A stretch of DNA of 64,000 nt from Clostridia bacterium (lineage in GTDB: Bacteria; Bacillota; Clostridia; Oscillospirales; CAG-272), in NCBI GenBank assembly GCA_017481495.1, contig JAFUPC010000059.1:1-64000 (forward strand), written 5' to 3'. A model generated the notes under the pieces. That model was not told the DNA's origin and ran no database searches. It worked only from the letters and a program-made list of their open reading frames with translations. The translations under genes were made by a program, and so were the position numbers. Shown one piece after another: positions 44,163 to 45,584 of this stretch; the first letter of the stretch is position 1, and each line of letters begins with the position of its first letter.

Positions 44163-44191
44163 TTGACAAATCGCCCGCGGGGTGTTATAAT
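44163..44191 (+). promoter_or_regulatory. promoter of the T-box-regulated transporter operon
   Basis: TTGACA (44163-44168), 17-base spacer, TATAAT (44186-44191), just after the Abi gene stop. Confidence 0.88.
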
Positions 44192-44197
44192 ATACAT

Positions 44198-44506
44198 AAT
44201 CCATCCGCGGTGAAAGAAATGACAGTAGGCTGTGAAGCGTATCCCGCAAAGAGAACTGCCGGGTGCCTGTGGGCACGTTTGCTGCGAGGCAGAGGGATCT
44301 CACGCTGAATTACACGTTCCGGAGCGGAGGGAGGAACTGACATGGGCTATGCCCATGCCCATGAGGCGGTATGCCGTGAGGATACCGTGAAGCAGAGTGG
44401 TAACACGGAAAACCACCGGACTGAAATCCATTCCGGATCGATTTTCGTCTCTGCATTGCCTGTGATGGGGTACGCCCCTGTCCGGGTGATGCGGAGCGTT
44501 TTTGTT
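44198..44506 (+). promoter_or_regulatory. T-box riboswitch, probably tyrosine-specific
   Basis: Stem I has AGTA (44224-44227), AGAGAACTGCCGG (44250-44262) and helix AGCGTATCCC paired with GGGATCTCACGCT. The specifier loop reads CTGAATTACAC: TAC (44311-44313, Tyr) is favoured because a purine follows, with TTA (Leu) the alternative. The T-box core is AGAGTGGTAACACGG (44394-44408), with TGGT to pair with the tRNA acceptor end. The terminator is CTCTGCAT (44449-44456) with ATGCGGAG (44489-44496), then CGTTTTTG. Uncharged tRNA should allow read-through into the downstream ABC transporter genes. Confidence 0.87.
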
Positions 44507-44537
44507 TCCGGGAAGAAAATAAAAGGAGAAACATCCT

Positions 44538-45584
44538 ATGAAACACAATTGCAAAGCATTCCTTTCCCTTGCATTGGCGGCTGTGCTGATGCTCTCGGGG
44601 CTTGTCCTGACCGCGTGCGGCGGCAGCTCCACAGGCCCGTTCCCCATTGTTTGTGGGGAAACCGGTATGAATGATGTCGCGGGTGTCGCAACCTACGGCG
44701 TCAGCTACTACAACCTCGGTGTCAAGGCCGGCGACATGGCGGCAGACATCCTGCTCGACGGTGCAGATCCGTCCACGATGGCAGTCTCCCTTGACCCCAA
44801 TCCGGCGCTCGTCATCAATGAGACCGTTGCCGGGGAGATCGGCTTCACCATTCCCGAATCTGTCAAGTCCCGTGTCTCCGGTGACACCGATGCGACCACC
44901 GTTACCCGTGTGGAAAGTGCCGTTGTCGCAGACGGCGGTGACTACACCGTCGGTATCCTGCAGCTGATGCAGCACGTCGCGCTCGACCAGACCAACCAGG
45001 GCTTCGTTGACCAGCTTTCTGTCCGTATGGATGCGGCAGGCAAGACCGTCACCATCCTTGACGAAAATGCAGCAGGCGACCAGGCGAACAACATCACCAT
45101 CGCAGAGACCTTTGTCAGCAAGAATGTTGACCTGATCTACGCCATCGCTACCTCTTCCTCCCAGGCAGCTGCTTCCGCGACCACCGAGATCCCGGTCATC
45201 TTCAACGCAGTTACAGACCCTGTCGGTGCAGGTCTCGTTGCATCTCTCGAAGCTCCCGGTGCCAATGTCACGGGCGTTTCCGACATCAACCCCGTCGCAA
45301 AGCAGATCGACCTCATCGGTGAACTGCTCGGCAGTGACGACATCACCATCGGTCTTCTTTACACGTCTGCCGAGACCAACTCCATCTATCAGATCGAACA
45401 GGCAAAGGCCGAATGCGAAGCAAAGGGCTACAAGTATGTCGAAAAGGGCATCGGCGATATGAACGATATCGAAGCCGCTTTCGTCTCCCTGAAGAACGCA
45501 GGCATTGATGCCATCTACATCCCGACCGACAACGTCCTTGCAAACGGTATTGCAAACGTCCATGCGGTCAATCTCGGAAAGTAA
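44538..45584 (+). CDS. circularly permuted ABC transporter substrate-binding lipoprotein (ABC_sub_bind family)
   Basis: This 348-residue protein has a signal peptide and lipobox (LTACGG, Cys27). The segment PFPIVCGETGMNDVAGVATY through IPESVK (about residues 34-110), normally the C-terminal part of this family, comes first. A linker of about 24 residues (SRVSGDTDATTVTRVESA) follows. Then comes the normal N-terminal part, DYTVGILQLMQHVALDQTNQ, running through VTDPVGAG to DAIYIPTDNVLANGIA. The chain ends just where PIVCGE would normally start. Nothing of the domain is missing. Relatives bind aromatic amino acids in TrpXYZ-type importers. The T-box suggests tyrosine. Confidence 0.88.
   Translation: MKHNCKAFLSLALAAVLMLSGLVLTACGGSSTGPFPIVCGETGMNDVAGVATYGVSYYNLGVKAGDMAADILLDGADPSTMAVSLDPNPALVINETVAGEIGFTIPESVKSRVSGDTDATTVTRVESAVVADGGDYTVGILQLMQHVALDQTNQGFVDQLSVRMDAAGKTVTILDENAAGDQANNITIAETFVSKNVDLIYAIATSSSQAAASATTEIPVIFNAVTDPVGAGLVASLEAPGANVTGVSDINPVAKQIDLIGELLGSDDITIGLLYTSAETNSIYQIEQAKAECEAKGYKYVEKGIGDMNDIEAAFVSLKNAGIDAIYIPTDNVLANGIANVHAVNLGK

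Follow-up and report, generated by a model that had tools for sequence, protein, structure and literature searches.

A circularly permuted ABC_sub_bind lipoprotein encoded in a T-box-led transporter operon of uncultured gut Clostridia

Results

Organization of the locus

The window analysed here is a 64,000-nucleotide stretch of a Clostridia draft genome, and all of the operon features described below lie on its forward strand. A sigma-70 type promoter (TTGACA-17-TATAAT, 44163 to 44191) is proposed from a consensus match only, at 12 of 12 positions. It is followed by a T-box leader, the gene of a circularly permuted lipoprotein of the ABC_sub_bind family (PF04392; 44538 to 45584, 348 aa), a permease gene (BPD_transp_2, PF02653; 45597 to 46529) and an ATPase gene (ABC_tran, PF00005; 46531 to 47346), the last of which is conserved beside the permuted gene. 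Upstream, the interval between the T-box operon and a serine hydroxymethyltransferase gene holds an abortive-infection-like gene (Abi_2, PF07751; 43179-44147), which was not seen in the corresponding gap of the closest relative (L033).

The lipoprotein begins with a signal peptide assigned from sequence (residues 1-26, 44538 to 44615), which leads into the lipobox LTA-C with Cys27 at 44616-44618. Behind it comes the C-terminal part of the family domain (44634 to 44873), which corresponds to positions 213-286 of the PF04392 profile and contains Glu41 and Tyr57. A new linker of about 21 residues (44874 to 44936) connects the former C and N termini, and the N-terminal part of the family domain (44937 to 45581, profile 2-204) is placed last. 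The open reading frame, the lipobox LTAC, the order of the two blocks, the linker and the gene neighbours are as a first-pass annotation of this DNA had described them. That annotation started the second block near residue 133, which suits the homologous stretch (from about 134) but not the VGILQL motif (residue 138). It also let the protein stop at IPTDNVLANGIA, which is incorrect, as the chain continues through NVHAVNLGK, the helix preceding the PIVCGE strand in canonical relatives. In the alignment to PDB 6HNI, the terminal NVHAVNLGK pairs with the helix that leads into the PVIAAES strand, which places the cut between this helix and this strand. Essentially no part of the family domain is therefore missing, in line with the earlier claim that both halves are complete. 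The linker length, previously given as about 24 residues, was found to be about 21-25. Its second half is conserved among permuted orthologues (VTRVxSAIVxxGxD) and is confidently modelled by AlphaFold2.

The T-box leader

The Rfam model RF00230 gave no match on the window leader at the gathering score, nor at E values up to 1 when the leader was searched alone. We built a Stem I covariance model from 11 other leaders (ten permuted, one canonical) with the window excluded, and the window leader (44203-44328) was its sole match in 64 kb (31.7 bits, E 2.8e-6). The window T-box is thus real despite the Rfam miss. A perfect hairpin, GTGCC-TGTG-GGCAC, interrupts the distal loop of its Stem I, and this insertion is probably the reason why Rfam misses it. 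The antiterminator (AGAGTGGTAACACGG ... CGTCTCTG) and the overlapping terminator (CTCTGCATTGCC ... GGGTGATGCGGAG, with a T run) were placed by eye at 44390 to 44507, by analogy with Rfam matches of orthologous leaders; a pattern scan did not pick them up.

The specifier column reads UUC or UAC in 11 of 11 modelled leaders, and the window has UAC (Tyr) at 44311-44313. Rfam T-boxes precede the permuted gene at L034, L035, L038, L042 and L054, and no T-box was found in front of it at L033, L041 and L044. The leaders of the canonical relatives L046, L047 and L050 read UUC by eye. Degenerate T-box leaders lie upstream of the permuted gene at L039 and L059, where most of Stem I is seemingly lost. 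The canonical paralogue in the window's own genome (L002, contig C29) seems, by eye, to be preceded by a T-box-like leader of its own (GGTGGCACCGCAGA...TCTGTCCTTA), which goes unreported by Rfam.

Profile comparisons

The intact protein matched PF04392 in two stretches with 194.3 bits (curated cut-off 25.9), and these stand against the linear order of the profile, 213-286 lying ahead of 2-204. Each part is recognized separately: residues 33-114 alone correspond to profile 213-286 (46.5 bits) and residues 134-348 alone to profile 2-204 (155.1 bits). When the halves were swapped in silico, as the first-pass annotation had proposed, a single unbroken match was obtained over 2-285 with 205.6 bits, and the two-piece alignment with CD0873 (PDB 6HNI) became a single one over 5-290. 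After the swap, homology also extends over the whole domain to the other solved PF04392 proteins, VC_1101 (3LKV) and S. pneumoniae SP1069/TrpX (3LFT). The TrpX equivalog model NF041285 matched in two stretches with 248.9 bits, below its curated cut-off of 390, and the permutation itself may lower this score. A chance origin of the two-block order was considered and rejected, because the parts reach 155.1 and 46.5 bits separately and the order is common to 18 distinct sequences.

Fold prediction

AlphaFold2, given an alignment of 12 permuted proteins, predicted a confident single domain (pLDDT 90.4, pTM 0.84), which answers the structural check that the first-pass annotation had suggested. With a sequential aligner, the in-order match of this model to 6HNI was limited to residues 109-322 (Z 17.2), and 3LFT and 3LKV were matched from about residue 108 onward (Z about 17). 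A canonical control model, although poorer (pLDDT 74.5), matched 6HNI end to end (11-300 to 44-333, Z 22.6). The best near-full-length in-order match of the permuted model was TpMglB-2 (6BGC), which it follows over 3-320 with 255 aligned residues (Z 16.1), so that a permuted class I topology of the TpMglB-2 type runs along the whole chain. TpMglB-2 was absent among the matches listed for the canonical control. The cut falls at about residues 255/256 of CD0873 in 6HNI. Judged from this position and from the order of elements in the model, the cut seems to be in the C-lobe, past its third strand. The lipid anchor has likely shifted from the N-lobe to the C-lobe.

Distribution and selection

We searched reference genomes and relatives of the window's genome for the same order, a search also proposed earlier, and recovered a clade: 18 distinct permuted sequences share the cut and the linker. 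Their sources are the gut of water deer, roe deer and sheep and other metagenomes. All 18 have a lipobox 9-16 residues ahead of the first strand, and the 17 full-length sequences end 15-17 residues past PTDN. In a tree built from the rearranged sequences together with 69 canonical sequences, the permuted proteins form one clade (SH-aLRT 100) on a long stem of 0.89 changes per column; with this stem and the neighbouring forks open, the tree fixes no nearest canonical relative. The adjoining permeases form one matching clade in their own tree (SH-aLRT 99).

The permuted form was present in 15 of 395 genomes and 10 of 71 genera of the window's own uncultured Clostridia family. At E 1e-45, the samples of the order and of the class yielded no permuted member outside the clade, and the PF04392 proteins of 249 genomes of the phylum were all in canonical order among the matches listed, a survey in which weaker cases could be missed. 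As far as these samples reach, the permuted clade does not extend beyond a single uncultured family of gut Clostridia. Compared with the closest orthologue, dN/dS was about 0.07 in the first part, about 0.02 in the last part and 0.20 in the linker; these are rough values, as synonymous sites are near saturation. The permuted protein is under purifying selection in both halves. At L044:4468-5488 and L061 the permuted gene is broken by an in-frame stop or frameshift. The contig that carries this broken gene is short and was binned under the name Candidatus Colimorpha enterica (Bacteroidota in NCBI), yet it looks clostridial, which makes the binning or naming doubtful.

Discussion

The swapped-profile match, the confident one-domain model, the conservation in a clade and the purifying selection in both halves together support the earlier claim that the lipoprotein at 44538-45584 is a true, functional-looking circular permutation. 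Our reading of the locus is that it encodes a circularly permuted substrate-binding protein of a TrpX/CD0873-type ABC importer, which arose once, likely by duplication and trimming; we put the probability of this reading at slightly under nine in ten. The chain would run from the fourth strand of the C-lobe to the old C terminus, through the new linker into a complete N-lobe, and end with the first three strands and helices of the C-lobe. So ordered, it would fold into the same two-lobe Venus flytrap as its relatives, close on the ligand and hand it to the permease.

The protein resembles CD0873, VC_1101 and TrpX in being a lipoprotein encoded with a permease and an ATPase, and differs from them in its permuted order, the cut at the position given above, the new linker between the old termini and the anchor point. 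T-box control also has a precedent in this group, as the trpXYZ genes of S. suis are under such control (PMC9382623). CD0873 selects tyrosine via Glu-263 and Tyr-279 (PMC6816091). The equivalents of these residues, Glu41 and Tyr57, are conserved in the permuted protein and invariant in 12 aligned permuted proteins. They are also present in canonical relatives with Phe-reading T-boxes, so that the pair does not separate tyrosine from phenylalanine here. The predicted ligand is an aromatic amino acid, most likely tyrosine in the window's genome, where the T-box specifier is UAC; across the clade, the leaders and the pocket residues suggest that it is probably tyrosine or phenylalanine. Accumulation of the uncharged tRNA would let the T-box permit continued transcription. 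The protein is most likely an ordinary aromatic amino acid binding protein, presumably active in transport, with its anchor on the C-lobe.

Other explanations were weighed against this reading. The permuted protein might fold but have left transport, acting as a lipid-anchored sensor, adhesin or scavenger with a ligand or partner unlike those of the canonical paralogues. Such a change of role would fit the long stem branch, the canonical paralogue kept in at least some genomes with the permuted gene and the probable position of the anchor on the other lobe, and CD0873 itself is both an adhesin and a binding protein (PMC6816091). However, the permuted gene is still followed immediately by the permease and ATPase genes, the permease tree shows a corresponding clade, and the aromatic T-box and the pocket residues are retained; we consider a non-transport role unlikely. 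It is still less probable that the protein is a recombined fusion whose first part came from another binding protein and complements the last part by chance. A second source was considered for TpMglB-2, in which the permuted part is poorly conserved (PMC4990184), but both parts of the present protein belong to the same family, share a similar identity (about 35-44%) with one and the same set of canonical proteins, and together span the profile with no overlap and hardly a gap. An assembly artefact, in which two canonical copies in tandem were merged into a chimera while the metagenome-assembled genome was built, had been named in the first-pass annotation as a finding that would overturn its claim, and has a negligible chance of being correct: although the draft is fragmented into 126 contigs (86% complete) and tandem copies of the gene occur in other genomes, the same junction is found in 18 distinct sequences, 58-87% identical to the window protein and from different animals, assemblers and bins, the linker is conserved, the gene is under purifying selection, and the flanks examined hold no second copy or remnant.

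We found no paper in the open-access literature that links circular permutation with the ABC_sub_bind family, which agrees with the earlier statement that no natural permutation had been described in it. Natural permutation of a binding protein has already been published in another family, a precedent that the first-pass annotation omits. This is TpMglB-2, an unrelated sugar-binding protein, and it is the one other natural permuted binding protein that we found in the literature. TpMglB-2 (Tp0684) of Treponema pallidum is a naturally circularly permuted class I glucose-binding lipoprotein, designated 'Type Ic' (PMC4990184; PDB 5JX2, 6BGC, 6BGD). Like the present protein, it is a lipid-anchored natural class I permutation, and its relatives occur in gut Gram-positives; unlike it, it belongs to a different sequence family and binds glucose. 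The present protein is thus an independent case, from another family and with another cut, in a clear clade whose canonical relatives have been solved structurally and bind ligands of a known kind.

Class I binding proteins have two lobes related by pseudo-symmetry, and the cut described here, apparently in the C-lobe after strand 3, would therefore occupy the pseudo-symmetric place of the cut in TpMglB-2, the two permutations being mirror images. In TpMglB-2, the cut is in the N-lobe after strand 3 and the C-lobe is unaffected (PMC4990184). We favour, with some reserve, the view that this is a second independent class I permutation at a C-lobe site mirroring that of TpMglB-2, in which the anchor has moved without loss of function and which has persisted in a clade. 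If this is true, the loop after a lobe's third strand is a recurrent permissive site, and handing the ligand to the permease does not depend on which lobe is tethered. In our judgement, it is uncommon for a natural permutation to remain legible in the sequence while its operon looks functional and its family includes canonical members. The clade offers a natural experiment on whether the function of a binding protein depends on chain order and on the tethered lobe, and provides evolution-tested termini for the design of permuted binding-protein biosensors. It also bears on profile-based annotation, in which such a protein gives two partial matches and the rearrangement is not signalled.

We take the permutation to have arisen once, in an ancestor belonging to a single gut Clostridia family. 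The usual model for circular permutation is in-frame tandem duplication followed by trimming, and this would be the most likely route here. The route, also put forward in the first-pass annotation, is plausible: a fused double copy exists in the same phylum, whereas the flanks examined beside the permuted genes hold no second copy, remnant or intermediate. Extensions of tblastn matches past the gene (window, L040, L033 and L038) were considered as relics of a second copy and rejected as chance runs into the permease start, the spacer or the signal peptide. The fused double copy (L098:1063-3012, genome G1358) comprises two complete ABC_sub_bind copies in one 649-aa frame, with a short linker and no internal signal peptide, and has permease and ATPase genes downstream. 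It is the kind of intermediate that the duplication model needs, although it is unpermuted, comes from a different genome of the phylum and may be unrelated to the permutation event. The fused frame is apparently a natural tandem binding protein and has no clear lipobox. At another locus of the phylum (L062/L100, G640:C45), two canonical genes stand in tandem with one T-box each. Together, the fusion and the tandem genes indicate that the raw material for the duplication route exists. The specifiers of the two tandem T-boxes, read by eye, are UUC (Phe) in one and UAC (Tyr) in the other.
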